A stretch of DNA of 64,000 nt from Tribonema minus (lineage: Eukaryota > Sar > Xanthophyceae > Tribonematales > Tribonemataceae): contig JAFCMP010000547.1 of NCBI GenBank assembly GCA_017506865.1, positions 434,001-498,000 on the forward strand, in the 5' to 3' direction. The notes beneath the pieces were generated by a model. That model saw only the letters and a program-made list of their open reading frames with translations, ran no database searches and was not told where the DNA came from. Positions 33,307 to 63,567 of the stretch are shown one piece after another. The stretch's first letter is position 1. Every line of letters starts with the position of its first letter. A program made the translations under genes and the position numbers.

Positions 33307-36300
33307 CTAGTGTAACCACATGGCGCCGGTGCCACCCGCCCCTTCCTCTTCGCCCACATGTATCAGTCGCCGCGAACGCTGCTGCGGGTGCGTCACCTGT
33401 GAAGTTTGCATAACTTCAACTTCAATATCATCGCTATCGCACTTCACGGGATCGTCGTCAACATCTAGTTGTCGGGGCCTGTTGCGCACGAACATAGCCA
33501 CGGAGCACCAGAGGCACCCCACAAGTGCAATGGTGAAGTTGAGCCATACGAGGACGTTCGCCACCTGGTCGTGCTGCGCGTTCAGCGTCACCGAGACTGG
33601 CGTGCAGCGCGGAGAGAGCGACAGGCGCGCAGAGGGTGAGACGGCCGAAATGCAAGTGCATGTTGGTGTGCAGTGGATGCGCAGAGAGTGACCGTACTGC
33701 GCGTTCAGCGTCACTGAGACTGCACGCGGCGCGAATTGGGCGAGAGGCGCACAGTGCGTGAGATGGCCGAAATGCAAGTGCGTTTTGGTGTGCAGTGAAT
33801 AGGATGAGACAACCGAAACGGGCGCGCATGACGCGTGATGGGAATGCATGGTTTTTGAGAGGGGTGCAACGGTTGCCCATGACATGAGTGCTGCTGGAAA
33901 AGGCACAATTACAAGCGGTGCAACAGTTTCTCCACAGCTTGTGTGCTGAAGCAGCCTGTGGGGAATGATGGACATGGCTCTGTGCATCACGAGGTCAAGC
34001 TCAACTCAACCTGGCTGTGTTGTACGTGATCACTGGTACAAAGGAACGTTAATGCTAGTGCGCTCTTCCACGGTCAGTTGTGTGGTGGTGCTGCTCGAAA
34101 GCCCTTTGGTGTCAGGCAAACCTTCGCTGTTAACGCAGAAAATTCAATTGACCTAGTAGGTTTTACAGAGTGCAGAACGGGCGTCGCACATGCAATCACA
34201 CGCCAATACACGGCTCATTAATACAGCATAACGCGTTGCTGCTGTAACTTTGAGCAAGCGACTGCATGTGACAGCACGAGAGGCCTGATAGTGCTATGCA
34301 AAGCCATGACAATGTACAATATGCAGCACCGCAAACACCCGGCATTATATGAGTTGAAGGCAGCAACAGCGAACTTCAACTCGAGCAGTGCCGGAGTGTG
34401 ACCATGCCAGCGGTCACGCCAAGTGAACTGCACTATTGCTGTCACAAGCACTATGTCATACACGTAGCGCGAACCTCAACACAGCAGCACTCAACAAACA
34501 CGTGGCGCCGACTTGGGCGAGCATACAGCAACAGCTCCTTGCAAGGAAATCAACGGCACATGATGTCCCAAGCAGCAGTGCTACAGTACACGCCTGAACA
34601 CAGTGCTGACGAAAGCGAGCGCGCGGTGTTGACTGTATCAGCACTGGTCTGCACAATGTCACTGCGAGCAGTAGCACGCGCAGCTGCAGAGCGACGTTGA
34701 AGCAGACTGCAGTGAACCAAAGCGGTGTGGTTGAAGTTGAGGTACGGTAGAGGTGGTGCAGCTGTGAGTTGAGATTAGAGTTTAGGTCAGGGGGGAGGTT
34801 GTACAAGCACCCAGGTTGAGGTTGGGGTAGGGTGATTGAAGTTGTTGTTGAAGTTTGGGGGGGGCAGTACCTGCGCCGACGATCCTGTACTCGCCGGACC
34901 CGTACGCCTGGCCCTCGACCCAGCGTATGGTGCTGCTGCTGCCGTCCGCGCCCGTAGCGCGCGCGGACCCGTCGGCGACGAGCACCAGCGCCGGCGGCGT
35001 GACGATGGTGAAGACGAACACGACAGCCGTGAGCGCTTTCGCCGCAAGGCGCGGAAGGCGCGCGCGGCGGAAGAAGTAGACGAGCTCGTGTCGACCTAGG
35101 TAGGCGGCGAGCAGCGCGACGAGCGTTTGCGAGAGGAGGAGGAAGGCGCCCGCGCGCGTGTAGTTGGTGTCGGTGGTGGCGAGCTCCGCGGAGACGACGT
35201 CGCTGAGCACTGTGCGCGCGCTGGCCATGGTCGTGTTTATACCTGACAAAATGCTCGAGCCGAAGGGGCGCGCGTAGCTGGGGGGGATGGGGGGGGGGCG
35301 GGGGGGCGAGGGGGGGATGATGAGTGTTCTTGTTGTTCTTGTCTACACGGCAGTCATGTGAAGGAGGACGTGAATGATTAAATTGTTGTCAGAAGCCGGT
35401 GGCAATGCTGGAAGGAATGCCAGATGCGAAAGGGCATGCACCAGGGCAAGCATGTCTCTAACCCTCAAATCTAATCCTTACCCTCACCAAAGTGTAACCC
35501 TCCAAGCTAGCGGTAACGAGCTCATCCAGTTTTCTTTTGAGCATCATCAAACTTGCTTTGTGATCAGCAACTCTGCCGCCGTGGAATGACGGCTTCAGTC
35601 ATGTGTGCCATACCGTAACCCTAACGCTAACCCTAACCATAACCTAACCCAAACCATGGCAACGGTACGGTAGCAAGAACACTTTTTTCAAAGTACAGAC
35701 TGACCCTGACGATCCGTGGGCAAGTCCTGCATTCCCCTGATGACGCAGCTTAGCGTCAGGGTCGGGATTACGTTGGGGTCACGTTACTCTGTCCAGACGT
35801 GCACGCTGCACAGACGGCAGTGCCCCACTCATAGCGCTGCATTGCACGATATGCTACAGACATTCAAAATGGCATGTGTGCATTTTCGCTTTATGTTGCC
35901 GTGCATCTTCCCCTACGTCCAGCTGCCACAAGAGCGCGCCGCGCGAAACGCCGCGATCTGCTTGCAGCGTGCTCACAAAAAACAGGGCACTCGCTGCAAC
36001 TCGTGTACTCACTCACTCACTCACTTGCGCACTCAGTGCGCCGTGACCCTCTCGCAGCTTGCTACAAAAAAGGCACTCGCTGCAACTCGCATACTCACTC
36101 ACCCACTCACTCACTCACTCTCACTCACCCCATGATGCCGTGCGTCTCCCCCTTGAAGTCGTACGTCATGTTCACCCAGCTGACGCGCATGCGCGCGAGC
36201 AGCGTAGCACCGCTCACCGCAGGCAGCGCCCCCCCCCCCACCGGCCCCCACCCCAGCCCCCCCCACGCATCGCAGTCATAGATGGTAGTGCGAGTGCCGT

Positions 36301-39300
36301 TCGGCAGTTGCAGCTCCCCAAACTGAGCGTTGCTGTTGATGAGAACCGTGCCGGAGGCGCGGTCGCCGTTGCACCATGGGAGCGGCTCCGTCCAGGTCTT
36401 GCTGGCGAGCACTGCCTGTTTAGGGGGGAAAGGGGGGGGGGGGAGGGATGACATTTGTGAGTCATGAGGCACCAAAGTGAGTCATTCATGTCACTCGTGC
36501 GGTGCCTGTAAGATGGCCAGGTGGCATAAGCCATGAGAGAACACGTGATGAATTGACGATGTTGATAGCGCAGACACTCTGTTATCTGCATTACCCAATC
36601 ATTGCCAGAAACAATGGCGCCAAGCAAATCCATACCAAAACCAGCTGCCTGCAAGAGCGCTGCCGCCGAGTGCGCATCAGCAACGCTCTAGCCATCCATG
36701 ATGCGCCCTCTGTGCGGACCCTACAAAGGTTGCATGCACATGAGATCACCAAGTGCCCGGCCAAGGGTGACTGTGCCACACAGAGTATTTGCACGATGAG
36801 CGTGCACCAGATGCAGCAGTGCTCAGTTGCAGCACTGCTCCGGCTGTGCCACACAGCAAAGTTGCGCGAGGCGCGTGCACTGGGCGCAGCAGTGCTCTGG
36901 TGTGGTCCGTGTCGACGTTAACTCTACCCCTAACCCTGACCCTGAGATGGTGGCCCTGCACATTGCGCGTTATCGGCGCTTCGACGTGAACTCAACGAGA
37001 CCACTACTCAATCTCAACCGTGGTCACAGCCCCGTCGGACCACGCACAATGCCACGGCGCCGTGAACCCCAACTCCAACCCCAGCTCACGCTAAACCTAG
37101 AACCTTCCGCTAAACCCATCCCCGTACGCCTGATACCTCAAGCCTGATCCCCCCCAATTTCAACCCTGATTCTACCCCCAACCCCCACCCCCATTACAGG
37201 TGACACCCCCTCCCCCCCCGCCCAGCGCTCACCAGGCGCAGCAACGCCTCCGCGGGGCCCACATTGGCAACGCTCGACCCTGATCCCCAACTTCAACCCT
37301 AATTCTACCCCTAACCCTAATCCCCAGTACACCCCCCCCCCGCAGCGCTCACCAGGCGCAGCAGCGCCTCCGCGGGGCCCACGTTATTAACGCTCGACCC
37401 CTCCACGTCTATTCTCACCCTACTAGCAGGTCCCACCTCTCAACCATACTCCTGGCCTCAACCCCAAGCCAGCCTTGATCCCGAGCTCTTGCCCTGATCC
37501 CAACCCCCATTACAGGCAATACAGACCCCGCCCCCCCCACACACGCTCACCAGGCGCAGCAGCGCCTCCATGCACAATGGCACGGCACTGCGAACCCTAA
37601 CCTTATTCCTAGCAGCTGCCGCTAAACCCAACCCCGTACACGCGTCAACCCTACTCCTGCGTTCAACCCAAGCTCTAACCCTGACCCCCATTACAGGCGC
37701 CACCCCCCCCCCCACAGCGCTCACCAGTTGCAGCAACGCCTCCGCGGGGCCCACGTTGGCCACGTTCGACCCTGATCCCCATCTTCAACTCTAATTCTAC
37801 CCCCAACTTCAACCCCACCTTCAACCCTAATACTACCCCTAACCCTAACCCCCAGTAGGCAACACATAGCCCCCCCCGAGCTCACCAGGCGCAGCAGCGC
37901 CTCCGCAGGGCCCACGTTGTTAACGCTCGACCCCTCCACGGCGCGCCCCCGCGCGGGGTTCCTCCCCCCGTCCGTCGTCAGATAGTCGTACGGCTCCATC
38001 CTCAGCCTCCCACTGTCACCGCCGGCGCTGTCGCCGCCGCTGTCGGGGGTCAGCCTCTCCTCCGTTACGGCCCACGCGCTGATCGCTGCGGCGCCGATCA
38101 CGAGCGCCGCCGGCGGCCGCGGCTCGCGCCGCCCCGCTCTCCGCGGCGCACCGCCCGCAGGCTGCGCCGCCGCGTACGCCCCGTCCGCGATGCTGCAGCT
38201 GCTGGTCCCCGCCGTCACCGTCTGCACGTTGCGGAACATGGACGCGTCGCAGAAGAGGGTGCGGCCGTAGCTCGCGACGACGCCGGGCGCGCCGGCGGCG
38301 GCGGTGTCCCAGTTGCCGGCGCCGGCGCCGCGGCGCGCGGGGGCAAAGACGTGGTGCTCCTCGGGGGGGTCTTTGTTGGGGGGGCCGGGTTCGATGGTGG
38401 GGGGCCACTGCAGGTTGGCCTGCGCACGCGGAGCGAGGGCAGCAGAGGGAACGAGTGTGGGAATGAACAGTGCACGAGTTTGGGTTGAGTTTGAGTGCAA
38501 GGGTTGAGGTGAGGTTATGCCGGATGCAGGTGAAACTGCTGCCCCCCCACCCGTGATGTGGCTGTTGCCGTTTCGTTGCCATGTGCATTTGCGAGGGCCT
38601 TGTCCTTGCGGAGGGTGGCAAGTGCAGGTTTGCGTGCAATAAGCAAGGAGGCTTACGGGGGGGTGTTGGCGATCCACACGACTCATGTTCTCCAAGATTA
38701 CATTTCAAGTCTTGTGCAGGTTCCAATCACTATTGAAGTGACTGTCTTGACCGGAGAGTCGGAGAAGCACGAGGGCGGAGAGGAAAGTGTGCCGGATTCT
38801 GTAGTTATGATGTTGTTCTTGCCTGCAAGGGTTCACATGTAGGCTGAGCGCGTGCGCTCATTCAAATGACACATTCACTCAATATCGAACGCATTGGCAA
38901 TTTCAAAGCTGTTGCCGTACTTGTTCAAAGCGCATGAGGCAGGGTTGACGTCGCCTTGCTGCCGCTGCTGGACTGTGTGTATGAAGGGGCAAGAGACATA
39001 TTATCAGCGACTTGCTGACGCAGTCGTGCAATGATGATCACTTTTGCTCCGCTCCTGCGAGCAATTTGAAAGCGTCCAACGATTGATGTGGTTGACTGCG
39101 CGAAGTAGGAGTCAAAGATGTAACGGCTGAAGTAGTTGCACTGTGTGAAGTGGGAGTCGAAGATGTACAGCGACTTGCTGACGCAGTCGTGCGACGAGCT
39201 CGCTTTTGTCTCATTCGAGTGACCGGCAAACGGCCGATGCGCTCACCTGCGTGAAGTAGGAGTCGAAGATGTACAGCGACTTGCTGACGCAGTCGTGCGA

Positions 39301-42300
39301 TGTGTTCCAGCCTTGCTGGTCCATCCAGTCGTGCTTGAAGGTGATGATGGTCACGCACTTTCCGCCTGATGTCTCGTAGTTGCCCATGCGCAGCGCGTTG
39401 AAAAGGTCCTGAGAGCATTACAGGCCATGCACACCACGCAATCTCTGTGAATAGAGGATGACATCAGTACCTTGCACACTGGACCAGCACGCATATTCAC
39501 ACAAACACAGCCCAAATATATATTCGAGACACGGTCTCTGCATTGGGAGACCAGGTCCTGAGAGCGTTGCAAGCCACGCACACCATGCAATTTCTGTGAG
39601 TATAAATTAGCACTTTGTGGTACCTATACCTACACTCATACGTATACCACCACATGCCCATGAAGTGCACCAGCCTTTGGCGCCACGCTGATGCCCAGGA
39701 GTGTGATCATGGTTGCTCCGAAGAACACCATGCATGAGAGCGTTGCAAGCTGTGCGTGCCATGTGATCTCTGTGAGTATAGCATTAGTACCTTGCATGCT
39801 GGAAGAGCACGCTACACGCCTGGTGGACATTCAAGAAGAGGTCTCTGCGTTGGGGAGCCCTGACATCTCCTAACTGCATGTAACTGCTGATAGCGTGGGG
39901 TGCGCGAGCGCCGCCAGAGGCACAACGGACTAACGCGCTTTGAAGAGCACCATACCCACACCCACACCTATGCCTTACATGCCACAAAGCGCATTCAGCA
40001 CCTTGGCTTGCTTTCGTGTGCTGTTCCGCGAGAGCGCGACCACACGCACCAACATTCCAACGGCACTGTGTGTATACCTTTACCTATGCCTACATGCTCA
40101 TGTAGAGCGGTCAGCACCCCCCCAAGAGCGCCCTCATGCGCATCATTGCTCTCAAGTCCGGCTTACCGAAGGTCACACCAACACCGCCTACATAGCGTGA
40201 GGCGCAGTCAGCCCTTGCCAATTCAATGCTTCCGAAGAGCGCGACCGTGCGCACCATCGACCCGAGGGACGCCATACAAGCCAGACCCCCATGCCATGTC
40301 CTACCCATACCCTACATACCCCTCAGGTGCGCACAACCGTTACATACTCGCCGCTGTGCTGTTGCCCAGGAACGCGACCATGCGCAACATCGCTCTACAT
40401 TCACACCATACCCCTGCCCATACCCACAGCCTACATGGAAACGAATCCAAAGATTGTAGAGCTCTGGGTGACAAGGCGTGGTTAGCCGCAAGTGCCTTCC
40501 ACCCATAACCGTGGTCGCCGCTGCTGCAGCCATACTTTGAAGATGCGCACGACCGTTACACACTCGCCTCTGTGCTGTTCCCCAGGAGTGCGACCATGCG
40601 CACCATCGCGCCGAACGACACCAACACCGGGTCCGCCTCCACCCACTGCGGATCATCCAGCGTCCACGCCACCTGCGCCATTGATGGCGCCACCGAGGCA
40701 TCGCTCTCGGCTATCGGCGCGATGACGGGGGTCATTGCGTAGGCGTCGCGTATAAACTGCATGGGCAGGCCGAGCACTGTTGTGGCGAAGCGGACGTAGC
40801 CCATGGCGAGGGTGACGGCGGCGTGGCTCGGGCCGTGCGCGAGGAAGATGAGGTCGGCCACGGCGGTGCACTCGAGGTCGCTGCACAGGAAGATGTCCAG
40901 CTGCAGTGCGGACGTTGAGGGGTGAAAACATTGAGAGGTATGTACTTCGACGTATGTGTATTCGAAGTATGTATATTTGGCCAGAGTATATGTATGTATA
41001 TACTTTGTGCAAGGAAGATGAGGTCCGCGACCACGGTGCACTCGAGGTCGCTGCACAGGAAGATGTCCAGCTGCGGCGGCGCGTGCGCAATGGATGATTA
41101 TGAGGGGCATGAATGTATATTGGGCCAGGATGCATGTATATTGGGCCAGGACGATGAGGTCCGCGACGATGGATGACGACGGGTACGTATGTATTGAAAC
41201 AAATCAGGAGATCGTAGAGCTCTATGTATATTGGGCCAGGAAGACGAGGCCGGCGATGATGGTGCACTTGAGGTCGCTGCAGAGGAAGATGTCCAGCTGC
41301 GGCGACGCGTGCGCAGTTTATTATTGTGATGGGGATGTAGGTATACTGGGCCAGGATATGTGTATGTATGTATACTGGGCCAGGAAGACGAGGCCGGCGA
41401 CGACGGTGCACTCGAGGTCGCTGCAGAGGAACATGTCCAGCTGCGGCGACGCTTGCGCAGTTATATTATTGTGATGGGTATGTAGGTATACTGGGCCAGA
41501 ATATGTGCATGTCTGTATACTGGGCCAAGAAGATGAGGTCCGCGACGACGGTGCATTCCAGTTCGCTGCAGAGGAAGATGTCCCGCTGCGGCAGCGCGTG
41601 CGCCTTTGATGTTTATCAAAAGGGATATGTAGGTCTATCTGGGCCAGGTGATATGTATGTATGTATATTGGGCGAGAAAGATGAGGTCGGCGATGACGGT
41701 GCACTCAAGGTCGCCGCACAAAAACATGTTCAGTGCACAAATGAGATTGCCGCACTTCACCAGGGCTGCGGATACATATGTGCCCTCTGAGTAGGTCTGC
41801 ACATACTGCACACCTGTAGGTACGGATACGTCAACATACAAAGTTGAAGTACGTATCTACCTCTGCAGTGTCTTCTGATCTGCCTGTGAGCATTGAGTCC
41901 CGATTGGTCACGCTTCTAGGTTGAGATGAAGCCACCTTTTGCACTCGCTGCGGCACTCTTCCTGTCAGGTAGCTCGTGCAAACCGCACTACTGCACATTT
42001 TCGTACATACTTTGAGAATCTTCAAGATATACACTTCAATTTACATACATGAACACCGCTGCAGTGCCTGTGATCTGCTTGTGCGCATGGAGCCGCGTCT
42101 GCTCACGCGTTCCCCCACGTCATATCCTTGAAGAATAAAATACTGAGGCATTTAGTGAGGTATTTAGGTTATATCCATGAACTGAATACTTCAAGGTACA
42201 TACATACCTCTGCGGTGCCCTTGATCTGCTTGTACGTAGCGAGCCGCAACTGCTCGCGCGTCAGCGTCAGCGTGCAGCACTTCAGATGTATACTTCAAGA

Positions 42301-44423
42301 TGTATACTTCCATACTTATATGCATACCTCTGCGGTGCCCTTGATCTGCTTGTACGCATCGAGGCGCGACTGCTCGCGCATCAGCGTCAGCGTGTGGAAC
42401 TTCAACATGTATACTTCAAGATGTACACTTGAATATTTGCTTATACCTCTGCAGTGCCCTTGATCTGCTTGTAAGCATCAAGCCTCGACTGCTCGCGCGT
42501 CAGCGTCAGCGTGTAGTCCGCCATGAATGCGCGCACATTCCTGTCGGTGGTGGGCCACGCCGCATCGGGCTTCTGAAACCTTGCGGCAAACAGCAAGTCC
42601 GCCGCGCTGCCCAGGGGGTACCCCTGAGAATATGGCGGGGGGGGGAGGGGGAGAGAGGGGCACGGCATTGGCTGCTTAGGGGTGGGTACCCCTGAGAATA
42701 TGGCGGGAGGGGGAGGGGGGGGGGGGGGGATAGGCTGCGTGGGTGGGGGGGGTGACTTGACAGTGCCGAGGAGGAGACTGGGTGTGCAGACTGCACTACG
42801 AACTGCACTACGAGAGAGTTGAAGTGAAATTGAATGTGTGCGCGTGTGAGCCCTGAGTGTCATGCCTGCGGCGGCTTAAACGAAACCCTAATCCCAACCC
42901 GTAACCCTGACTCACAGTGTCAGCAGCAGCTGCAGCAGCTGCGCGATGCTGGCGCGGCGATGCAGTCAGTCACAGGCTCAAAGGTTGCTAGTTAGGCATG
43001 ATGTCAGGCTGCACGAGTAGTCCTAACCCTAAGCCTAACCCCTAATCCTTGCTCCTGACGCGTCAGCCAGGCAATCATTGCGGTTTACCCCTTGATGACA
43101 TGACACACTTCAGATGCTAGGTATTACATGATAGTATGTGCAGTAGCGCTCTGGTCAGCACTTCTCAATGTCTCAGGCCTTGCTGCTAGAGAAACAGAGC
43201 TCAAGTTAAGCTTCTTGAACACTGGCAGGTCAGCACATGCAATAACTTTTGGTTTGCTGCAGCAGTGTACGCTGATTTAGGTTGCCATGATCGCGTCAGC
43301 ATTTGCCATGCGAAATGGGTCATCAACACCAGCTTGCTCAGCCAACTGGACAGCATTTTGGTAAAAAATGTCGCTGCAAGATGATGAGGGTTTTTATTTC
43401 GTCCCACGTGTGTCTTAGTGTTGTGTGAAGGGCGTGTCTGCATTCCTGCGTGTCAGAGACAATCATTCCTCATGAAGCCAGTCGCTGGCTTATATGTAAT
43501 CATATTTAACATCAACCATTTGTTACCCGGATGCTGGCCTGCCTTGACTTCAGTCACAATCAGCAATTGCAATAATTGCACTTAGAAGTGAAGTATGTAG
43601 CAGTGTACATGTCATCAAGTGCCAGAACGTGTGGACAAGAGTTGCTTGCGCGCCAGGTGTGCTACGTGTAGATCGTATGCAGACGCATTTGAGGACACAC
43701 GCAAAGGGCAACAGCAGTCTTCCAGCAGGTGTGGCAAACATGCAATAAAATGTGCATTACATTGGTTTGAACTTTGTGTGCAATGTTGGTTTGAGTTTGG
43801 CCAAGTACTGCAGGCAGCGCACCGAGGCCGGCCTACGTGCCAAGGCCTTCGAGAGTACCTTGGTGTGCTAAAATCACAAGTGACAGTTGCAGTGGAGTCA
43901 GGCGCAGGTTTTGAGCCAGAATAATGCAGGCTGCACATGGCAGTATCAGCACAAACATGTATAGCTAGACACCCCGCCGACGGCAACCAACATCAATGTT
44001 GATGATGCTGGTCGCCTGCGACAGGGACTTGGAGCTTTGAGCTTCAACATTACGAACAAGTCGCTGCGACAGGGACTTGCAGCTTGCAGCTTGGACATGA
44101 CGAACAACACTGCACTACAACATGCTTGTCATCGTCATGTACGCTGCAGAGGAGCCTTCGTGCGTCCCGCTTCGGTTAGATTGGATATGTTATGTGCTGG
44201 TGTACATTTATTCTGCAAGCAGCAAGCATACCTTGCCCACGATGTTGCACAGGGAGACCTGTTGACCGGACTGCAGCGCCTCCCCACAGAGCTCCGTGTC
44301 GCCACCGGCATCTTCCTGAGTGACTTGAGTAAGGTTGATAGCAAACTGTGGGCTGCCTGCACACAACGCCACATTCAGTGCCCAGCACAGCCCAAGCAGC
44401 ACAGCCAGGCTACGACGGTCCAT
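33307..44423 (-). CDS. Signal-peptide multi-pass membrane protein, unknown family
   Basis: Eight minus-strand exons join in phase to about 795 residues: 44423-44232, 42623-42447, 40900-40562, 39408-39247, 38419-37886, 36415-36129, 35277-34871 and 33596-33307. All introns are GT-AG. Exon 1 starts MDRRSLAVLLGLCWALNVAL, a clear signal peptide. A long, probably extracytoplasmic region follows, with Cys residues (LFLCSDLEC-like motif in exon 3, GGKCVTIITF and TSHDCVSKS in exon 4) and several N-glycosylation sites (NLT, NST, NTS, NGT, NMT). The last two exons hold about three membrane spans (FLLLSQTLVALLAAYL, ALTAVVFVFTIVTPPALVLV, LNFTIALVGCLWCSVAMFV) and an acidic cytoplasmic tail. No family is recognised. 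Further exons between the first two cannot be excluded. Most introns contain tandem copies of the adjoining exon ends. Confidence 0.75.
33596..33860 (-). repeat. Duplicated acceptor region of the last exon
   Basis: The start of the last exon (GTGACGCTGAACGCGCAG on the minus strand) with its upstream intron sequence recurs at 33693-33724. The neighbouring intron block containing GGCCGAAATGCAAGTGC is also present twice (33648 and 33763). A third, more diverged copy follows to about 33850. Confidence 0.75.
36004..36128. repeat. CACT microsatellite at a donor
   Basis: ACTCACTCACTC runs at 36006-36030 and 36090-36128. On the minus strand the intron after exon 6 of the membrane-protein gene begins GTGAGTGAGAGTGAGTGAG, so the donor site itself is part of the repeat. 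Confidence 0.8.
37230..37931 (-). repeat. Five tandem copies of an exon-donor junction
   Basis: The last codons of exon 5 of the membrane-protein gene, encoding NVGPAEALLRL and followed by GTGAGC, recur downstream in the intron at 37722-37771, 37548-37570, 37350-37403 and 37230-37279. All keep the donor. The copies are 120-200 bp apart and are separated by poly-C and CCCTAA-like sequence. Confidence 0.88.
39004..39290 (-). repeat. Tandem copies of exon 4 donor end
   Basis: The end of exon 4 of the membrane-protein gene (DCVSKSLYIFDSYFTQ) recurs as degenerate pieces at about 39146-39196, 39083-39115 and 39004-39032. The first copy keeps most of the peptide. Confidence 0.75.
40015..40600 (-). 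repeat. Tandem copies of exon 3 donor end
   Basis: The end of exon 3 (MVRMVALLGNSTEAS) recurs downstream in the intron near 40364-40400, 40235-40262 and 40020-40060. A more diverged version near 39700-39740 reads FFGATMITLLGISV. A dispersed repeat (40437-40530) lies between the real exon end and the first copy. Confidence 0.7.
40437..40530. repeat. Dispersed repeat, copy 3
   Basis: Near-identical to 22015-22109 in the same orientation. It sits immediately after exon 3 of the membrane-protein gene, on its downstream side. A 30-bp fragment of the same repeat is at 41192-41225. Confidence 0.7.
40840..41735 (-). repeat. Array of exon 3 acceptor junctions
   Basis: Upstream of exon 3 (start 40900) its first ~20 codons with the acceptor (minus strand CAG|CTGGACATCTTCCTG) recur at 41011-41075, 41239-41303, 41382-41443, 41528-41590 and 41676-41735, with a partial copy at 41141-41172. 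From 41239 on, the period is 143-148 bp. Every unit carries TATATTGGGCCAGGA or similar on the plus strand. The peptide FLCSDLECTVVADL is largely kept in the copies. Confidence 0.9.
41858..42525 (-). repeat. Array of exon 2 donor junctions
   Basis: The last ~22 codons of exon 2 (LTREQSRLDAYKQIKGTAE, then GTAT) recur at 42325-42393, 42205-42272, 42057-42110 and 41858-41914, with divergence increasing with distance from the real exon. ACTTCAAGATGTATAC-like intron pieces separate them. Confidence 0.9.
42614..42740. repeat. Duplicated acceptor of exon 2 with poly-C tract
   Basis: The block GGGTACCCCTGAGAATATGG at 42616-42635 is repeated at 42686-42705. Each copy is followed by a long G run (42638-42652 and 42708-42730), which on the minus strand is the poly-C tract upstream of the acceptor. 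Confidence 0.85.
44232..44423 (-). CDS. First exon of the membrane-protein gene
   Basis: The start codon at 44423 is chosen over the in-frame ATG 48 bases upstream because a hydrophobic leader of about 20 residues follows directly after MDRR. The exon ends at GGCAAG|GTATGC, phase 0, after a segment with two Cys (ELCGEAL and SLCNIVGK). It lies 1.4 kb downstream of the end of the PHD gene. Confidence 0.7.
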
Positions 44424-53200: not shown

Positions 53201-56200
53201 AACTGGCATCGGCTCATGGTCTCTCACTCTACGCGAGACTCAAGGTTTGTGAGCAAGACGGCCACCCCTGAGGAGGTCCCACCTCCGCATAATTCAGCAT
53301 CGAATGCTAGGAGTATATGCCCCATCTCTGAGCCTCCAACACCACCACACCAGCAGGAGGTACAAGCTGTTCGAGCGTGTGTTTTCAACTCATCGATACC
53401 TTTAAAGGTTTGTGTGCTCACAGGACAGAGCACTCTTTTTGCAACCAAGACAGGACCTGAACTTCAAGTGCGTGTGGTGAATGGGGAAGGTACTCACTTG
53501 AAGGGACTCACTCTTGGTGGCCAGAACGAGTGCTCTGTCCTGTGAGCACACAGACTCAACGTATCAGTGAGTTGGATACACACAACTGAACAGCTGTAAT
53601 TCCTGCTGAAGTGCTGCTGGTCTGCTCCGTCGGCTCGTTCCACACACTTCAACGAGGAGAGTCACTGCCCTGCCCTACTTCAGGTGAGCCCTAGAACGCA
53701 CCTTCTTGGTCGCCACTTGCGCCGTCGGCTCGTTCTACACTTCAACAAGGAAAGTCTCTGCACTGCTCTACTTCAAGTCAGCCCGAGAGCGCACCTTCTT
53801 GGTCGCCATCTGCTCGCAAGCAAACCTTTTGTCATGCTCCGTCGGCTCAATCCTGAAACTCAACAAGGAGAGTCACTGCCCTGAACTTCAAGTGAGCCCG
53901 AGAGCGCACCTTCTTTGTCACCATCTGCTCCGTTGGCGCCTTGAAGAGGTCCTTGACTGCAGCTCCGTACTGGCGTGCCCTTCGGTCGATAACCTCCAGC
54001 ACCTCGGCGAGGGCAGGATCGGTGAGCTTGAGAGCTTTGACCTGCATCTCACAGCGAATACAACAGTGTCATGGCAGTTACGCACTGGCGCTGCGCCACC
54101 ATGTCGGCACATGTGAGAACTTGATTTTCGTGAAATGCGCGAAGCTGGTGTGATGACGAGTTGCACACCTGGATTCGATGCCATCGACCGTGGCCATGCC
54201 TGTCTGCCAAAGTCACGGTTGTGCGTCTCTCGCGGAAATCAAACTTTGGACTTCAACGTGGTAAACTGCTACACCGACTTCACTCTTGGTGTAAATAAAT
54301 TCGCCTGTGTCTTACTCAGCATGACAACATCAACTGGTACGGCGCACACACAGCTTTAACTTCAACAACATGTCTCAGGTCCTGAAGCGATGGCTAAATG
54401 CAGCATCCCAAAGTCAGCTGACATGAGGCCGTGTTTCAGACGCTTCTAGTGATACATTTCTCCAATGCCGGAGTAGTCACTGGTGCCGAAGCACATGCAC
54501 GGGAGACCAATCATCGCCTGCTGCGAATGCGGCCCCTTAGCGGAGTGCGACAGACATGGTCTCGTACCAATCTTCCTACTTCATAGCATTCACCGCTTTC
54601 GTTTTATGATTCTTACTCACAAGAGCGGGTCGATGTCATCATTGCGACCGGCGCGCAAACACAGTGCATGATGCTACCGGCTGAGAGGACCGCCCTCAAA
54701 ATACGCCGCCTCAATCTTGCATGTATCCTACCGTAGCACTTGAAGTACGTTTCTCTGGTCACCATTGCAGATCATTCTATCGTCACCTGCTGCGAGAGCG
54801 GGCCAATGTCGTAGTGCTACAGGCGCGCGCACAGCCACCACTGCATGACATCACCGGCTGAGAAAACTGCCAACAAAACGCAACATCAATCTGGCACGCA
54901 TGCTACCGTAGTACCTTTCTCTAGTCATTCTATCCTCACCTGCTGCGAGAGGGGGCCGATGTCATAGTGCGACGGGCGCGCGCGCAGCGACCACTGCATG
55001 ATGGCGCACCACACCACGACGCGCAGGCCCTGCATGATGGTGTACGCCTCGTTGCGCTGCACGTGCCCGCTGGGCGTCGTCTCGTCCCACTTGAGCGAGT
55101 CCAGAGCGCGCAGGTTCTCGTCCACCTGGTCCAGCACCTGAGATGAGGAACCCGGGGGGGGGGGAGGGGGGGGGGGTATCTGAAACCTGATGGCAGCTCA
55201 AACCCTGTTACAAGTCTGACCCTAGTGTGACCCGTTTTGTACAGTGAGTCCAGCGCGCGCAGGTTCTCGTCCACCTGGTCCAATGCCTGCGGCGCAAGGC
55301 GATGGCGGAAGAGGGTCGTAATCCTAATCACTCTTGAACCTAACCCCAATCCTGATAAAAAAATGACCCCTACACCTACAACATGAAACTAGTCTGACCA
55401 CAAATCTTTGAGCGAGTCCAGCGAACGCAGGTTCTCGTCCACCTGATGCAGCACCTGAGATGAGAAACGGGGGGGGGGGGGGGGGGGGGGGTAGGTTTAG
55501 GGTATCTGAATTGTGGTGATGATGATGGCAACTCAAACCGTGGCCCTAACCCAAGTCTGACCCAAATTCGAGCGAGTGCACTGGTCCACACGGAAATGGG
55601 CGGGGGCAGGCGGGGTGATTGGTTTAGGGTACCCAAAACCCTGATGGCAACTCAAGCCCTGGCACTAACCCTCACCCCACTCTGTAGTCTGACCCAGTTT
55701 GAATGACTCCAGCGTGTGCAGGTTGTCATCTGCCTGGTCCAGTGGGACAGGGGGTGATGAGTAATCCTTACCGCTCTAAATAACACTGCAACCTCTACAA
55801 CTTCGACCTACTTTACTCAACAAATCCCACTGCGCGCAGGTTCATGCATCACGGACACACGAGTGAAGCGAAGGGCTAGTCTCCTATACATATATTGGTG
55901 TACAGGGTTAGGTTAGGGTTAGGGTTAGGGCTTAGGCTTAGGGCTTAGGGTTAGGGCTAGACATGCAACCCCACACCTGACCAAGACCCACACAAGCCTG
56001 ATGTGTGACCATAAAATAAGTCTTTGAAGCGAGCACGAGTCATTGAACCAGCAGCTGCGCTGCCGCTTTTCACTTCCGCAGAGATACTGCTCCCCCCGGA
56101 GCAGGGCGCATGCGCTGGTCACTGAGGTATCCATTCACATTCTTCCACAATTGCAGTAGATGGCGCACCCCCACGCACAACCTCCCTACTGCAGCAAATA

Positions 56201-59200
56201 CTGGCTGCTGCTGCCGATGCAGGCAGGGGGGGTAAATCTGGTGAGCTCATCTATCTACACTTGAAGTTTCACTTGCCTTTACGTTGCAGCGGACCATGTC
56301 TGGGTCCAGGTTCAGCGCGCCCGTGATTGCCTGTGCGCGCGAGAAAGCAGCAACAGAGCGTGGTGAGCACTCCACGATTCAAGGACACATGCGCTGCAAC
56401 CTCATCAGCACCCGGATTTGGCCACACGGCCTTTGGGGGGGGGGGGGGGGGGGGATGAGAGTTAGAGATAGATGCTATTTTAGGCGAGAACGCGTGGGGC
56501 CTGGCCCGGTGGGCGTGATGCAGTTGAAGAAGCCTTCAGCTGAAGATCTGGCCGTGTGCAGACACCAGCGTTGATGAGTCGGATGTAAGCTTCTGTCTAC
56601 ATATATACTGTCTACATATATACATATACTTCAATGGACGGCAGGGCCACGCGCTTGAAATATACAAAGCGGACACAGACATCGATGACAGTTTCATGGT
56701 GGATGCCATGCTTTCATCCCGCATGAGACTGGTGTCAGCGTCGGTGTCCCTCGTGTACTCCAAGTGCATGGCCCTGCTGTACAGGTTCAGGAAGCTTGTC
56801 TCCGACTCGTCTACGCTAATGTCTGCAGATAGCCGGATCCTCAACTGCCATCTTCAACTGATGCATGCCCACCAGGCCAGACCCCATGCATTCTCATCCT
56901 AACCCTAACCCTAACCCTAACCCTAACCCAAAGAGCCGCAGCTCCACACGCAGTAAATCTACGATATGCTCTCTCAGGCGCCCTTCGTGAAGCAGAGATA
57001 GAGATGGCATGAATGAGGCATGCCATTTGCATGACAAGAGTGAGTGGCGACGCCCGCATTTGGGCAGCACAGCGCAGCTAAGTCTGAGCAGCTATCCACT
57101 TAAGGAACTGCTGCGCTGGCCAGCAGCGCCGCTCAGCAACTCCAGCGCGAGTCGCACTGCAGTGTGCTTGTACAAACGGGGTGCAATACATACCTGCCGC
57201 ACAGTACGTGGCGTAGTAGAAGCAGTTAGGGTTAGCGTTACGGTTAGGGTTTTTCACATTTCGGCCTCACCGAGACCACAGAGCTGTAGATCCTGTGTAG
57301 ATCCTGACGATATGATGTTGGCTGTCTGCGCCAACCACTTGCGCTTCTCATACGCCTTCTAAGTTAGGATTAGGTTCAGGGAAATTTGCACATTATCGGA
57401 CTCACCGTGACTACAGAGCTGTAGATCCTGACAAGACAAGGTGTTGGTGGTATGGGCCAGGCGCTTGCGCTTCTCAGACACTTTTTAAACGATTAGGGTT
57501 AGGGTTGGAATGTTTGCGTTTCGGACTCACCAAGACCACAGAGCTGTAGATCCTGACGGACATGATGTTGGTGGTCTGGGCCAACCGCTTGCGCTTCTCG
57601 AACGGCACCAAAGCGGTTAGGATTAGGGTTACGGCTTTCGCATTTCGGCCTCACCGAGACTATAGAGCTGTTAGGATTAGGGTTACGGCTTTCGCATTTC
57701 GGCCTCACCGAGACTACAGAGCTGTAGATCCTGACGGACATAATGTTGGTGGTCTGCGCCAAGCGCTTGCGCTTCTCAGACGGCGTTTCCGCGATCGGCG
57801 CGGGCGCCTTGCGCACCACCAGCGGCCTCCAGCGACGGAACGCCGCAAGCATCTCGTTCTGCGCGCATGAATGCATGCATGAATGAATGAGTACATGAAT
57901 GAATGCGCCAGTAAATGAATGAAAGCATTAATGAACGCACCAATAATGCATGGATGAATGAATGAATGGACCAACGAATGAATGACAGAATGCACCAATG
58001 AATCAACGAATGCACCAAGGACGAATGAATGAAGGCGCTGGCTGTTATTGATGCCGTCCTGCACCCGAGCGGTTTTGCCGAACACAAATGCACGGAATGG
58101 AGTGCATGAGCGAATGCGCTGACCAGCATTTCTGGCGGCAAGCGTGTGCACTTGACGTCGCTTCCTCGCTTGCGATGCGCACATCCATGCAGCAAACATT
58201 TGATGACTGGGTCGAACAGCTGGGCAGCGCATCACAACGGTGGACGGCCTGGCGTCTCTCCTTAGGGTTATGGTTAGGCTTGCTATGGCAGTCTCAACAA
58301 TCCTGCATTCTTCTGAGTGTTGCTGCACGAGCCTGTACAAGCTGTATGCATACATGACCAGCTGGACCACTGTCAGAAAGCTTAGAACATGTCATTTGCA
58401 GTCCATGGATGAAGCCACCAACGCCTTTGTTGGTGGCATGTGGTGGTAGACTGAGCACTGGGGCCCAGCAGTGCTCAGTGCACAAGCGCGGCACACAATT
58501 GCAGATGGTGGTGTAGGAACTTTGCTCAGAAGCACTTTGCCAGATAGCCCAGCGGGGCAGAATGTGTTCATAGCCGCCCTTCACAGACGAGAAGAACACT
58601 GCTACACCACGCATTCTCGCGCACGCTTACATGCACATGACAACTCTACACTCACGGCATGCGCTTGCAGACGGTCCGCCATCGTGGCAACTGTTGAACA
58701 AAGACTTCACACTCCTACTGCACAGTGCTTTCGCAGGCAGACTGCATGACCATGGTATGGTGCTTTTACGAGCACACCCATACTTTCAGATTGACTTCAA
58801 GTTGAAGTGCGTACCTCTGCTCGCCCGTGGAGGTTGTTGACGCGGCACATAGGACATGTGAAGGGGTCGTGCATTTGCGTGGTAGATGCGCGTGACTGCG
58901 CACAACAGGAGCAAAGGCGCAGCGAGTGGGTGCAACATGACGTGAACGCGCGCGTTGGAGAAAGATGCATTGCAGGCCATATGATGTGGATCTAATGTTG
59001 CAAGCAAGCTCAATGAAGAGTTTGATGCACGCACTCCTCGCAAATCATCACCAACAACTTATAGTTATATATAGAAGTATGGTGAGTGACTCACCGTGGG
59101 CAGTATGATGAAGCCGCAGCAAGGGCATCGTAGGATGCGAACACGCGCTTTGTAGAGGTACTCCTTGCAGGCAGCATGATGTTGAGGTCATCTTGACCAC

Positions 59201-62200
59201 GGGAGAAAAGGCGCAGCGAGTGCATCCTGATGCGAATGCAAGCGTCGTGGAGTAATTCCTGGCAGGCAGTATGATGCCGAAATCATCTGAAGTGCAACTG
59301 CAATTACGACTTTGTATGGTGAGCATTGTTTGAGCAGCTTTTACCATCACAGCAAGGGCAGAGGGAGACCAGTGGCAACCGGGCGGAATGCCGTCTGCTC
59401 TGCCCCCATATCAAAGACACGTGTGAAGGGTTGATGTGTGGCAGTCAGGTTGTTTTGGGAAAGGATGTGCAATGAGGCATGGCCTGCTGGCAACACACAG
59501 CCAGGCGTCGCTGGAGAAGCAAGCCGACCCCCCTGCAGACAGCAATCGCAACTCTACATCTTCAAGTCGCAAACAAAATATGACAAGACTACTGTAGTAT
59601 GCAGCACCGTGGTACTTCAAGTATCATTACTTCAAGTCACGGCTCAGCGTAGTAGGCGTCACCCACTTCAAGCAGCCCACACTTGCCCAGTTGCAGATCT
59701 TCCGGGGCGGGGGCAGACAGCCCAGAATTCTACCAGAGTGTCAGGCAAGCGTTGCTCGTAGAGTATGTACTTCGAAGTATGATTTTTGCGCATACCTTGG
59801 GATCCATGGCCACGCAGATAGCGTGGTGCCCCAGGCCGCAGTTCACGCACTCCACAATGGCGCCCTGCGCGGGTTACCGAGTGGCACGTCAACTACGTAA
59901 GTTACAGCGTGTCACGTCAACTGCGTCAATTGCAGAGTGGCACGTCACCTACGTCAGTTCAGAGAGGCACGTCAACTACGTCAGTCACAGATTGGTGCAT
60001 CACTTGCAGCTCGTGCCTGCACATATCAGGCGCCGCGCACCGCCGCTGCACGCAAAGAGAATGTGTGTGTGGCCTTTCTATGCTAGCCTACCAGCTAGTA
60101 CTCTGCCGCAGCTGTGTGCCTACAAAGTCTTGCTGGTCGGCGTCAAGCAAGGACTGATGCGCATGCTGCTGCCCTTCGCAAAAAGTCAACACTCTTTAAG
60201 GCCCGTTCCGCGTTTGGCCATGTGGATGATTTTGTGCAATTGCGCCGCGCAGAGATCGCGCAGCAGGCGTGTTCCGCAGGAATCAACGGTTGCGCATAGC
60301 AGAATGTACATGCAGGCAGCGGGCGCGCACTCTGCAGACGACTTTGCTTGGCATCTGAACGGACGAGACTTGCTCGAAACGGCACGTCGCCGCGGTGGAA
60401 GTGCGAGAGCTGCACCACCGCTACAAAGTTTTCAGTGGTAAGGGCGATGTTGCAGGGCGGCAACAAGGTGGCGCTGGACAGACGTGATGCGACCAGCTTG
60501 TGTAGCAAAGGCAGGCGCGCGTGCTGCACTCCGCCGCGCTCCCGTCGTCTCCAGCAAAGCAACCGCGATCTGCGGCTCAAGTCACTCACATCGTTCAGCC
60601 TTCGGCAGATGCAGGTGGTACAGGCCAGTTGCTGCAGATACACAGCAACAGCGGCGGCGGCAGTGGCAGCAGGTGGCAACAGTCAGTGTTGGTACCTGTG
60701 CCGCGACAGGTGACGTATTTGACGCCCGCACGCACATTCGCAGCGGTGGCTCAGCTCAGCGCAGTGTGCATGGTCGCAGCAGCGGCGGTGGCGGCGGCAG
60801 TGGCAGCAGGCGGCACCGGTCAGTGTTGGTACCTGTGCCGCGACAGGTGACGTATTCGACGCCCGCACGCACAGTCACAGCGATAACTCATTCATCGAAG
60901 TGTGCACCGTAGCTGTCTGCTACCAGATGGCTTGAAAGGTTGGCGGCGCCAACCAGACGCTGTAGGGGTGGGAAACCAGCACTTTTGAGGTGGCTTCCCC
61001 CTTAGGGTTAGGGTTAGGCTGACCCTAAGGTTAGGGTTAGGCTGACTCTACCCTAATCCCAACCTGACCGTGACACTGACTGAACCGATACTACGTTTCA
61101 CGCATTTGGTCCACGATCAGCTCGGCCGCTGTAGCCAAGCGCGTGGAGCGCCGCCTGACGCCGCCTTGGTGTGCCCCTGGCAAAGTTCACTTTTGAACTT
61201 GAGAGTCCCCTTCACGCAGAGGTCCAATGTGCGCACGCATTTCTCAGCCTGCGCATTTTGCTCAACACGGAAAACTGCGGGACATTGCAAAACATACGCT
61301 GTGAAATGGGTGTTCTGCATTTGACAACATTGCGTGGTACCTGTTTGAGCGTTGCCACCAGTTTATCAATTAATTGGTTATATATAACCTAACCCTAACC
61401 CTAACTGTATATATACAGTTAGCATGTGACGATGTTGCATGGACTTGAGCGTTGCCACGAGCTTGCTGAGGTCGACCCTAACCCTAACCCTAACCCTGAC
61501 CCTAACCCTAACCCTGACCCTAACCCTAACCCTAAGCCTAACCCTAAGGGCTGCTGCAAATGTCGGTTACATTTATGTTATATATATGCTGACCGCTGAT
61601 GTGGCACCATAAGACCAAACTCAAATACAACTGTTTCCCATGTACCTTTTTGAGCGTTGCCACGAGCTCGCTGAGGTCGACCCTGATGTCGCCGGCCTCC
61701 TTCATGAGTTCGCGGATCTGCCAACAACCAGTGCAGCAACAACGCGTGGACATCTCGAGATTAGCTCCAGGTCACACATGTGATGACTCCTTGTGCAGGC
61801 GAAGAATCGCAAGCTCTGACGTACTGCATTCACGTACCGCAAACGTACTTGGCAGTCTCATCACAGTTCAAGCAGCGCGTGCATGTGCAGATAACCAGCG
61901 CAGCACGATACACCGAGCGGCTTGAGACGACAGTAGCTCCAGGTACTTCTATTAGATACCTTTGTGTGTAGACAATAATAATGAAGCTGTGTTGAGCTTC
62001 GCTCCGGAGTACACATTTGATAACTCTTTGTGTAGAGAGAAAACCTCAAGCTCTGGCTTTCTCCCGTTGTGTGCAGACAACCAGCGCAGCACCACACACC
62101 ATGCAGCTTGAGAAAACAGTGGCTCCAGCTTACGGATTAGATATAATAATTTGTTGTGTAGAAAAAAACTCAAGCTCTGACATTCTCCCTTTGTGTGCCA

Positions 62201-63567
62201 CGAACATGCAGCACCACACACCGAAGAGCGTGAGAGTACAGTAGCTCCAGGTTACCGATACCTTCGTGAAGATAACACTATCATAATAGTCATGACGCAC
62301 TCCATTTGTATGCCGCAAACGTACGTGAAAATATACGCTTCCACATAAATTACGTGAGGGTTTGTGCAGTTACAAGCACAGACTGCATCACAATGCATCC
62401 GGATCATATGTACGGCACGCAGTTGTGGCTTTGTGTTCGCTGCTCTTGACAAATCAGCCATTGGTACTGAGCAAAAGCAGGAGCAAAACAGCAACCGGCG
62501 ACTCGCCGCATTCGCACACGAAGAAATTGAAGTAGTGATTCGAGGTACACGACGAATTGAAGTAGCGCATAGCAAGGTGACTTGCCTCAGAAGCTGCCGC
62601 AGCGCTGCCTTTGCTGCTCACTCGTCTGTACACAGACACCCACTTGCCGGCGTTCTGCAGTGCGAAAACAGTCAACAAACATTGAGTTCAATTTAATGTG
62701 AATCGCTTTAACTTGTAAATAACTGACTGTGACGAAGAAAAGTACATAAAGCAAAAACGCATCAGCTCAAAGGCACAGCAATGGAGGTGGCGATGCATGT
62801 GATGTTGCTGGTGCCTGTCTCGCATACCTGCCATACTGCAGCAGGGACCCAAAATGGGCTACTTGTTGTCGACGCAGAACCGCAAATACGGTTTCGTTGT
62901 TGCATGACTGCGCAACAGGACCGCATGACGTGCAGCAGCGCTCATACGTATTGCGTGCAACAGGTTTCACGGGTTGCTGCTTCGCACAGAACATGCCACA
63001 AGGGAGGTCGCCAGTCGTGTGCAAACGCAGCGAAGCGGTGATCGTCATGAGCAGTCATATCGTCACTCAACTGACACTACAGGGACACACGGTGCAGATG
63101 CCATGACATTCATTCACCGTGATCGTTCACAATGTACCACGCTATACCAGCCTGTCGCCGACGACACTTGTTTTTTTTTTGTGAAGGACCACTTGTGGCC
63201 CATGGCCCAAGGGGACACACGCTGTAACGCGCGTCAGCATCACCCGACTGAGCACTGTGTGCACTCGCGACGCACCTTGGCATGCGCCTCGAGAACCTTC
63301 CTTTGCCTCAAGAACCTTCCTTCGCCTTGAGAATCTACAGAGCACTGTGCACTTGGAGTACACCTGAGCACTGTGCACTTGAGGTGGACCATAAATAGCG
63401 TGCGCCTGAAAGGAATCTGCTGATAACTGTGCCACTGTAGTGGGCATTAATTAGCGTGCGCCCCAAGCAATCAACCGAGCACTGTGAAGTCGGGGCGCAC
63501 CTTGGCGTGCGCCTTGAGAGTCTTCGAGTCCTCCACTGCTTCCGGCAGCCGTAGGCGGTCCCCCTCC
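45864..63567 (-). CDS. PLU-1/PHD chromatin protein, KDM5-like, 5' end missing
   Basis: Seventeen minus-strand exons join in phase to about 579 residues: 63567-63501, 62654-62622, 61717-61646, 59864-59796, 59163-59095, 58895-58815, 57858-57709, 56330-56283, 55137-54940, 54041-53910, 52242-52144, 50431-50322, 49506-49392, 48668-48567, 47298-47125, 46495-46378 and 45964-45864. Domains in order: PLU-1-like helical repeats, a Cys/His zinc module, more helical sequence, a complete PHD finger, then a Pro/Ser/Gln-rich tail with a basic nuclear-localisation motif. Such proteins read or remove histone H3 methylation. In KDM5 proteins the catalytic JmjC domain precedes PLU-1, which would lie beyond the window edge. 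KDM5 identity is an inference; a different PHD protein is possible. Confidence 0.7.
47886..48328. mobile_element. Short TIR element with TTAGGG core
   Basis: The ends are inverted repeats: GGGGGGTCACGATATACGAG on the left, and on the right CTCTTATATCGCGACCCCCC, whose reverse complement differs at a few positions. TA dinucleotides border both ends (47884-47885 and 48329-48330), as for Tc1/mariner-like MITEs, though 2 bp is weak evidence. A third end-like block (GACCGCTCTTATATCGTGCC, 48003-48022) suggests a nested or composite element. The interior contains uninterrupted TTAGGG units at 48211-48236. It lies in the intron between the exons ending at 48567 and starting at 47298. Confidence 0.6.
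49090..49440 (-). repeat. Tandem copies of the PHD second-exon donor
   Basis: The donor end of exon 49506-49392 (minus strand, KPTDED then GTGAGT) recurs at about 49290-49325, 49203-49235 and, more diverged, 49091-49135. The unit includes a CTACTGACA/GACACTCAC block and a TTTGCAGAGGG-like block. Confidence 0.7.
49392..50431 (-). CDS. PHD finger exons
   Basis: Exons 50431-50322 and 49506-49392 splice in phase (a Gly codon is split). Together they give [29 protein letters not shown] and, after 12 residues, HYTCKAC. All eight C4HC3 ligands are present. The [13 protein letters not shown] core with an aromatic before the first pair is typical of PHD fingers that bind histone H3 tails methylated on Lys4. 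The exons are 815 bp apart, and both have junction copies nearby. Confidence 0.9.
50399..51625 (-). repeat. Tandem copies of the PHD first-exon acceptor
   Basis: The start of exon 50431-50322 with its acceptor (minus strand CTGCAG, then GCGCG, AMEDG and YRYC codons) recurs upstream at 50509-50560, 50850-50910, 51117-51150, 51216-51275 and 51570-51625. Each is followed on the plus strand by related intron blocks such as TGCTGCTGCCACAATGC on the opposite flank. Confidence 0.85.
51855..52180 (-). repeat. Three copies of an exon-donor junction
   Basis: The end of exon 52242-52144 ([10 protein letters not shown], then GTGCAG) recurs at 52016-52050 ([10 protein letters not shown]) and 51855-51892 ([10 protein letters not shown]). 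Substitutions mostly keep amino-acid class. Confidence 0.85.
53690..53945 (-). repeat. Copies of the exon 10 donor junction
   Basis: The end of exon 54041-53910 (EQMVTKK, then GTGCGCTCTCGGGCT) recurs at 53782-53830 and 53688-53740. Pieces of CGTCGGCTCGTTC sequence are shared with 53626-53640. Confidence 0.8.
54600..55745 (-). repeat. Junction copies on both sides of exon 9
   Basis: The acceptor end of exon 55137-54940 ([12 protein letters not shown]) recurs upstream at 55244-55290, 55410-55465 and 55700-55745. The donor end ([14 protein letters not shown]) recurs downstream at about 54780-54870 and, more diverged, 54605-54670. Copies on the acceptor side come with long poly-C (minus strand) tracts and TTAGGG-like spacers. 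Confidence 0.85.
55905..55962. repeat. TTAGGG tract
   Basis: GGTTAGGTTAGGGTTAGGG followed by GCTTAGGCTTAGGGCTTAGG variants, in an intron of the PHD gene, in TTAGGG orientation on the plus strand. Confidence 0.85.
56536..56845. repeat. Imperfect 300-bp palindrome
   Basis: The plus-strand sequence from 56640 to 56540 read in reverse complement resembles 56770-56840. AAGCTTGTCTCCGACTCGTC at 56789 corresponds to AAGCTTACATCCGACTCATC on the minus strand at 56592. GGCAGGGCCACGCGCTTGAA at 56639 corresponds to the minus-strand AGCAGGGCCATGCACTTGGA near 56786. The result is an inverted duplication centred near 56700. The minus-strand reading is open for 102 codons, so one arm may derive from an exon, but no splice sites of the right phase were found. 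Confidence 0.65.
56898..56931. repeat. CCCTAA tract
   Basis: Five or so perfect CCCTAA units inside an intron of the PHD gene. Confidence 0.85.
57258..57792 (-). repeat. Five copies of the exon 7 donor junction
   Basis: The end of exon 57858-57709 ([20 protein letters not shown], then VVS and GTGAGG) recurs at 57645-57672 (short), 57520-57608, 57397-57480 and 57258-57352. Units are about 125-130 bp long. Each is separated from the next by a single TTAGGG-like block (for example GGTTAGGATTAGGGTTACGG). Confidence 0.9.
57868..58035. repeat. GAAT-type microsatellite
   Basis: Degenerate GAATGAAT and GCATGAATGAATGA runs immediately upstream (minus strand sense) of exon 57858-57709. The donor-side intron carries a different repeat. 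Confidence 0.85.
58815..59864 (-). CDS. Cys/His zinc-module exons
   Basis: Three consecutive phase-0 exons (59864-59796, 59163-59095, 58895-58815) encode [19 protein letters not shown], then [19 protein letters not shown], then [17 protein letters not shown]. Ligand candidates are CxxC, HxxC, CPCC and CPMC, resembling the second half of a PHD finger with a long insertion or a degenerate C5HC2-type module. The first CxxC pair of a standard PHD was not located upstream. Confidence 0.65.
61335..61717 (-). repeat. Copies of the exon 3 donor with CCCTAA spacer
   Basis: The end of exon 61717-61646 ([11 protein letters not shown]) recurs at 61443-61480 ([10 protein letters not shown]) and 61333-61375 (KLVATLK). 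CCCTAA units fill 61479-61552 and 61386-61405 between them. Confidence 0.85.
61646..63567 (-). CDS. PLU-1-like repeat exons
   Basis: Three exons (63567-63501, 62654-62622, 61717-61646) give a continuous helical stretch: [30 protein letters not shown], then [18 protein letters not shown] with VATLKK. The pattern of a Pro-rich start, Leu spacing and an A..W....R element followed by a 'leucine, acidic, V-x-L-x-E-L' segment is that of PLU-1 domain repeats in KDM5 demethylases. Phases are all 0 at the internal junctions. Confidence 0.5.
63250..63545 (-). repeat. Short-period copies of the first exon's donor
   Basis: The donor end of exon 63567-63501 (KTLKAHAK, then GTGCGC) recurs at 63265-63300 (KVLEAHAK). 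Shorter pieces containing GCGTGCGCC occur at about 63398 and 63453. GAGCACTGTG decamers occur at roughly 63250, 63340, 63366 and 63477. Confidence 0.75.

Follow-up and report, generated by a model that had tools for sequence, protein, structure and literature searches.

Intron lengthening is usually attributed to mobile elements, and decaying arrays of head-to-tail units are well known from minisatellites. Here, we describe a stretch of 64 kb from the alga Tribonema minus (the window; contig C544, 1.86 Mb, in a genome of 158 Mb and 554 contigs), in which exons of two minus-strand genes are accompanied by one to five degenerate copies of their own ends, usually with the splice site, situated in the adjoining introns. 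These arrays resemble minisatellites in having head-to-tail units with decay, but differ from them in being enriched at exon borders and in containing coding sequence. The best explanation, to which we assign a probability of about 0.78, is recurrent short tandem duplication across splice junctions, the surplus copies being intronic and decaying.

The closest described case concerns the potato RdRp gene, where an intron-exon border was duplicated in tandem, giving rise to a new intron, and the duplicates differ at ten sites (PMC4974935). As in the alga, the duplicated unit spans the border. However, the potato case is one event in one gene that yielded a new spliced intron, whereas in the alga many junctions are affected, serially and on donor as well as acceptor sides, and the copies lie inside existing introns. 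PMC4974935 also outlines a model in which introns are gained by tandem genomic duplication (Rogers 1989; Hellsten 2011), a new intron arising from an AGGT-containing exon segment. In both the model and the alga, tandem duplication acts on exon sequence together with splice signals; the difference is that the introns compared in the alga are already present in a paralog on contig C25, which is therefore not an intron-less homologue. In mammalian cells, CST-guided fill-in by Pol alpha-primase generates small tandem duplications at nuclease-made breaks with complementary 3' overhangs (PMC8355091). Common to both systems are short direct duplications without a mobile element, and the complex is telomere-associated while the genome of the alga is full of telomere-like tracts; the accessible part of that report describes neither a preference for borders nor arrays. 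By analogy, a related process may operate in the alga. Introners likewise remodel introns genome-wide (PMC9860276), but the sampled genes of the alga are without a family of similar introns. The original prediction, made from the letters of the window, stated that no described system of such regularity was known, which the published potato duplication makes too strong a statement. A description of serial exon-end copies in adjacent introns was not found by title or start of abstract among the matches listed for the open-licence literature, which is weak evidence. Border duplication in a single gene is already known; its serial recurrence at many junctions and on both intron sides may be new.

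The exon limits of gene A, on the minus strand at about 33.3-44.5 kb, were fixed by the C25 paralog, independently of the repeats. For the strict test, a query of 120 bp containing exon sequence only was compared with the adjacent intron, and its score had to beat all 100 dinucleotide shuffles. Copies were found at 6 of the 14 gene A junctions. For example, a 71-bp exon end occurring once in C25 was present four times in the window (five times with a more sensitive test), and about 80 bp of an exon start were present six times, the real exon included. At two more acceptors, border-reaching repeats with few exon bases were seen by eye (42616-42660/42684-42728 and 39404-39812) and are uncounted in the strict test. 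Self-comparison of the window yielded 93 same-strand BLAST pairs less than 6 kb apart, and Tandem Repeats Finder (TRF) reported arrays at 42203-42516 (period 120), 41223-41733 (period 145) and 57296-57671 (period 124).

The copies extend beyond the window. A total of 86 exact junctions were placed by hand near the ends of protein or paralog homology, and 28 of them had at least one exon-end copy in the adjacent intron under the strict test, among them 27 of the 78 outside C25. The kinesin loci L038 and L039 had been chosen partly for visible duplicate matches, and counts are also given without these two loci, gene A and C25; on loci not chosen for repeats, copies were present at 17 of 53 junctions. 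Three weak rows were counted: in the junction test, a GCC-rich acceptor copy of 25 bp lying 42 bases off the junction (L020); in the count of border clusters below, a largely poly-C acceptor cluster (L039 538); and in the control at ends of coding sequences, a single, uninspected match (L027). One acceptor word (L040) was unlocated and dropped, and the first place was taken for two words found twice (L038, L039). Six of about 40 multi-exon kinesin genes (a count by eye) were examined; self-BLAST of two further kinesin loci, picked by size alone, showed no copies at 2 junctions and, among 6, a single border repeat.

A homology-anchored test made use of 45 actin-family and kinesin exon matches at 16 loci, the exons being located irrespective of repeats, with the last or first 60 bp of each match as query and 44 tests per kind. 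Three matches of the hidden Markov model that were themselves candidate copies (C538:351879, C511:562024, C246:701357) and four actin rows on contigs C514 and C501 were left out. At z>=6, the exon end recurred in the proper adjacent intron for 9 of 44 donors and 10 of 44 acceptors, whereas the wrong side gave none in 44 tests of either kind, and the mid-exon controls 0 of 32 and 1 of 32. When the threshold was lowered to z>=4 and the score had to exceed that of every shuffle, the proper side gave 10 of 44 and 12 of 44, the wrong side 2 of 44 and 0 of 44, and the mid-exon controls again 0 of 32 and 1 of 32. The original observation is confirmed, and, as claimed there, donor copies lie downstream of the exon and acceptor copies upstream.

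Next, the anatomy of the units was analyzed. The head-to-tail units include intron sequence (TRF and unit listing), and 51 of 62 copies reach to within 4 bases of the junction. Among the 25 arrays with a near-junction copy, the first unit measured 91-216 bp in 24 and 404 bp in one (median 161), with an exon part of 21-112 bp (median 51), an intron part of 34-174 bp in units of the 91-216 bp range, and a mean exon fraction of 0.36. The duplicated unit thus spans the intron-exon border; duplication of a whole exon with both splice sites was not seen, as no copy carries more than 112 bp and nearly all stem from a single end of the exon. Because the exon-internal limit is often common within an array (the five E3 acceptor copies all share the same 65 bp, and the three at one L026 donor share 60 bp), one unit was probably re-duplicated repeatedly. 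The breakpoint coincides with GGGTT or TTGAAGTT-like sequence in some donor arrays, which makes template switching at such tracts a candidate. The words TGAAG/TGAAC/CTTCA/GTTCA occurred within 20 bp of the breakpoint in 13 of 31 donor copies, versus 13% in the control, in a post hoc count of non-independent copies; for acceptor copies the values were 2 of 20 versus 10%. The excess is at donors alone, and the motif serves as no more than a lead. TTAGGG-like words, noted in the prediction, are strongly over-represented, with 55 matches to a 12-mer (at most one mismatch) versus 0.1 expected in the window; they are interstitial and on both strands. Telomere-like tracts were rejected as the driver, as the density of the TTAGGG hexamer showed no difference between junctions that have copies and those that lack them (p=0.88).

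To quantify the preference for borders, 33 introns (42 kb) flanked by hand-placed junctions were used, excluding introns of more than 2600 bp and removing 16 of 110 repeat pairs as low complexity ahead of clustering. Of 35 local-repeat clusters, 23 include an exon border, versus 7.3 expected at random, in a set in which an unrecognised exon may hide within some introns; none of 400,000 simulations reached 23. Border clusters were present in 16 of the 33 introns. On loci not chosen for repeats, 11 of 19 clusters were at borders, versus 3.7 expected (p=1.5e-4). However, duplications might occur everywhere at one rate without any border preference, those in exons being purged and those within introns fading in both copies. 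A border pair would stay visible longer because one of its copies is conserved. Such survivorship would account no less well for the orientation, the neutral decay and the trend with distance. When the detectability of border repeats was doubled, 11.8 border clusters were expected instead of the 23 observed (p=7e-5), which argues against it, as does the non-uniformity of the exon parts of the units. For the loci not chosen for repeats, 6.0 were expected under doubled detectability (p=0.014) and 7.7 under tripled detectability (p=0.09). We therefore regard a border excess beyond random placement as likely, although short of beyond doubt, and survivorship alone as an unlikely explanation that still deserves serious weight. 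Somewhat less credible is an instability nucleated by exons, in which GC-rich exon DNA is the hotspot, only events spilling over the border survive, and splicing is uninvolved. Exon ends with copies are slightly GC-richer (0.665 versus 0.632, p=0.03), but the exon parts are short and the units lean to the intron.

The copies appear to be dead, and their changes fit decay as neutral non-coding sequence. In 58 copies (about 956 aligned sites for each codon position; copies of less than 80% identity and the L020 copy excluded), mismatches between exon and copy were distributed 79:73:149 over codon positions 1, 2 and 3. A ratio of about 1:1:2 is expected if the copy drifts everywhere and the exon mainly at synonymous third positions. 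Among copies of at least 35 bp that end within 4 bases of the junction, the splice dinucleotides were kept in 36 of 45; at a mean identity of 89%, this is about the neutral expectation. Retention of GT or AG in most copies might suggest functional arrays of decoy or alternative splice sites under selection, one of the readings offered originally. However, neutral retention and the neutral codon-position pattern led us to reject selection for such sites, and in addition copies are confined to one of eight junctions in the paralog, and the copies are truncated within the exon; we consider this reading very unlikely. In contrast, border duplication with intron expansion, also offered originally, fits the data. 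As had been predicted, divergence tends to grow with distance: when copies of at least 35 bp were paired within an array, over all loci tested, the nearer one was more exon-like in 36 pairs, less so in 7, and 3 were ties.

Comparison with paralogs gave information on the age of the copies. The C25 paralog of gene A is about 67-82% identical over most exon alignments and keeps introns at all eight junctions compared, with copies at only one, the E3 donor. At exon positions that differ between the window and C25, the copies of five paired junctions agree with the window exon in 81 instances and with the C25 exon in 35. Therefore, most gene A copies are probably younger than the split from C25, and the exon has changed since. 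By eye, a stretch resembling 36771..36897 is present in the C25 paralog near L033:9787. GC donors occur at matching junctions, 40568/40567 in gene A and 5796 in L033, and some gene A copies retain GC. The C25 paralog also contains a stretch near its C-terminal end (L034 2470-3080), coding by eye, that is absent from gene A. An intron gain in the last exon of gene A was considered and rejected, because the extra ~600 bp in C25 look coding by eye and contain no self-repeat, and hence no duplicated intron. In the actin family, L022 (C80) has two acceptor copies that are absent from its close paralog L021; the two loci share 92% identity along the 4.9 kb that begin at the exon, and about 80% ahead of it. 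A dispersed element is found in the introns of L021/L022 and L041 (matches of 177 and 144 bp, ~80% identical, with GCGCGAAAAAGCCC inside), and a large inverted repeat was seen by eye in an actin-family intron (L019 ~4700-5000).

Two further explanations were considered. Introners or another family of transposable elements might insert at exon ends; consistent with this, spacers have TTAGGG-like, poly-C and ACTT-C/G-AAGT words in common, the latter (4-bp inverted repeats around one base) occurring 44 times versus 5.4 expected in 264 kb. However, every array is built of units drawn from its own exon and intron, and in the 38 inter-locus intron pairs that match, the first match per pair was telomere-like, poly-C or poly-G, bar one dispersed element. 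For the 33 sampled introns, without similar introns across unrelated genes, an introner family is rejected, and we regard insertion of such elements as highly improbable. An assembly artefact is unlikely, and we give it next to no credence, because the divergence from the exon is 2-22% in copies that measure at least 35 bp, and the copies recur on at least 10 contigs.

Recurrent duplication across junctions draws directly on the tandem structure of the units, the enrichment at borders, the neutral decay, the trend of divergence with distance and the differences in copy number between paralogs. Short tandem duplications would recur across junctions and take exon and intron sequence along. The exon-proximal splice site would remain in use, as protein continuity suggests, and each further copy would fall inside the intron, be freed from selection and decay. 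If new copies arise mainly beside the exon, older ones would be pushed deeper, divergence would rise with distance, and the intron would grow; this direction of growth is our inference, as is the underlying DNA step. Candidates for the latter are fill-in or end-joining of staggered breaks, and template switching at short homologies or at G-rich or hairpin-like tracts beside exons. Mutation itself may prefer borders beyond what survival alone brings about. Tentatively, and with more doubt than confidence, we suggest that borders are mutational hotspots, at which a process tied to transcription, splicing or G-rich or hairpin sequence duplicates junctions, and that introns grow outward by a directional ratchet that stores time-ordered fossils of exon ends.

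Several observations weigh against recurrent duplication at borders as the full account. In the strict test, a multi-exon actin-family gene (L018 on C97) had no copies at 9 junctions. Ends of coding sequences without a splice site had copies in 1 of 11 cases versus 28 of 86 junctions (p=0.17), too small a sample to establish specificity for splice sites. Under tripled detectability, the border excess on loci not chosen for repeats loses significance. The exon parts have a median of 51, whereas 80 would be expected under uniform placement (p=0.005), so that border-crossing placement is not simply random. Not every array follows the distance trend, the E6 array being one exception, and changes unique to copies in gene A are uneven over codon positions (26:13:31, with nested copies non-independent). 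Two copies are present at the E3 donor of C25, and some arrays may predate the paralog split. Lastly, the distal L022 copy is 15% off its exon, compared with 8% between L021 and L022; L021 may therefore have lost copies, and growth may not be the sole direction.

The coordinates of the features in the window are listed in the table. The second gene (~53-63 kb) had copies at 5 of 6 tested junctions, which were chosen by eye; the open reading frames tried gave no Pfam match. The prediction had counted at least a dozen exons with copies, and about a dozen junctions is correct, but they lie on somewhat fewer exons. The additional case that it had placed at 7.2 kb is present. The spacers of the E6 array (37233..37772) are rich in TTAGGG-like sequence.

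Table. Exons and exon-end copies in the window (positions in the window; percentages for copies are identities)
Feature	Position	Strand	Remarks
Gene A exon E2, real	42447..42623	-	donor 42447/42446; tblastx to C25, 88-90% at the amino acid level
E2 donor-end copy 1	42328..42395	-	68 exon bp, then GT; 91%
E2 donor-end copy 2	42208..42277	-	70 bp, then GT; 89%
E2 donor-end copy 3	42059..42110	-	83%
E2 donor-end copy 4	41861..41916	-	78%
E2 acceptor repeat, 68-bp	42616..42728	-	BLAST pair 42616-42660/42684-42728, 91%; ~8 exon bases only
Gene A exon E3, real	40568..40900	-	82% to C25 at the amino acid level
E3 acceptor-end copy 1	41006..41070	-	65 exon bp, AG upstream; 91%
E3 acceptor-end copy 2	41232..41296	-	85%
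E3 acceptor-end copy 3	41376..41440	-	88%
E3 acceptor-end copy 4	41521..41583	-	84%
E3 acceptor-end copy 5	41669..41733	-	83%; AG gone
E3 donor-end copy 1 (GC donor)	40354..40393	-	90%; more copies 40237-40278, 40017-40051
E4 donor-end copy 1	39141..39194	-	96%, GT gone; more copies 39096-39122, 39005-39033
Gene A exon E6, real	37886..38419	-	donor 37886/37885; homology to C25
E6 donor-end array, 4 copies	37233..37772	-	37730-37772, 37551-37569, 37353-37407, 37233-37280
Possible strongly diverged distal E6 donor-end relics	36771..36897	-	BLAST repeat pair; identity as relics by eye
E9 acceptor-end copy	33693..33719	-	27 exon bp, AG upstream; 93%
Three donor-end copies of the exon ending at 57709	57271..57606	-	57533-57606, 57406-57479, 57271-57354; exon by reading frame only
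Three acceptor-end copies of the exon starting at 55137	55243..55742	-	55243-55282, 55408-55454, 55684-55742; exon by reading frame only
Two donor-end copies of the exon ending at 54940	54622..54848	-	54787-54848, 54622-54673; exon by reading frame only
One short donor-end copy, 21 bp, from the exon that ends at 53910	53795..53815	-	
Two donor-end copies of the exon ending at 61646	61341..61479	-	61445-61479, 61341-61361
Acceptor and 32 exon bases, two copies	7185..7365	-	46 bp at 93%, 135 bp apart; BLAST, outside the strict test

Additional features of the window and the genome were observed. A p300/CBP-like gene (25105-28227, plus strand) has a bromodomain (E=4.8e-18) and a HAT_KAT11 domain (E=3.1e-15) in neighbouring open frames, with long low-complexity tracts. 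A cluster of long direct repeats (~430-1460 bp, 74-92% identical) lies at 13743-19203, and two near-identical reading frames of 125 amino acids (4481-4858 and 13066-13443, minus strand) probably belong to a dispersed element. The G+C content of the sampled loci is 50-62%, compared with 64.6% in one published assembly of Phaeocystis globosa (PMC11347835). The genome contains 92 antenna-family matches, and two of them match many PDB chains named as fucoxanthin or chlorophyll a/c proteins, with no close species among these; the antenna proteins show that the organism is an alga, probably with a red-lineage plastid. A search for psbA gave no match above the family cut-off.

Taken together, roughly one in three of the junctions tested appears to have released copies of its own sequence into the intron, which suggests a testable route to intron growth. 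Alternative splice sites and newly gained introns may draw on the exon-end copies as starting material. Because exons keep changing synonymously after copying, the copies would also constitute a local record of past exon states.
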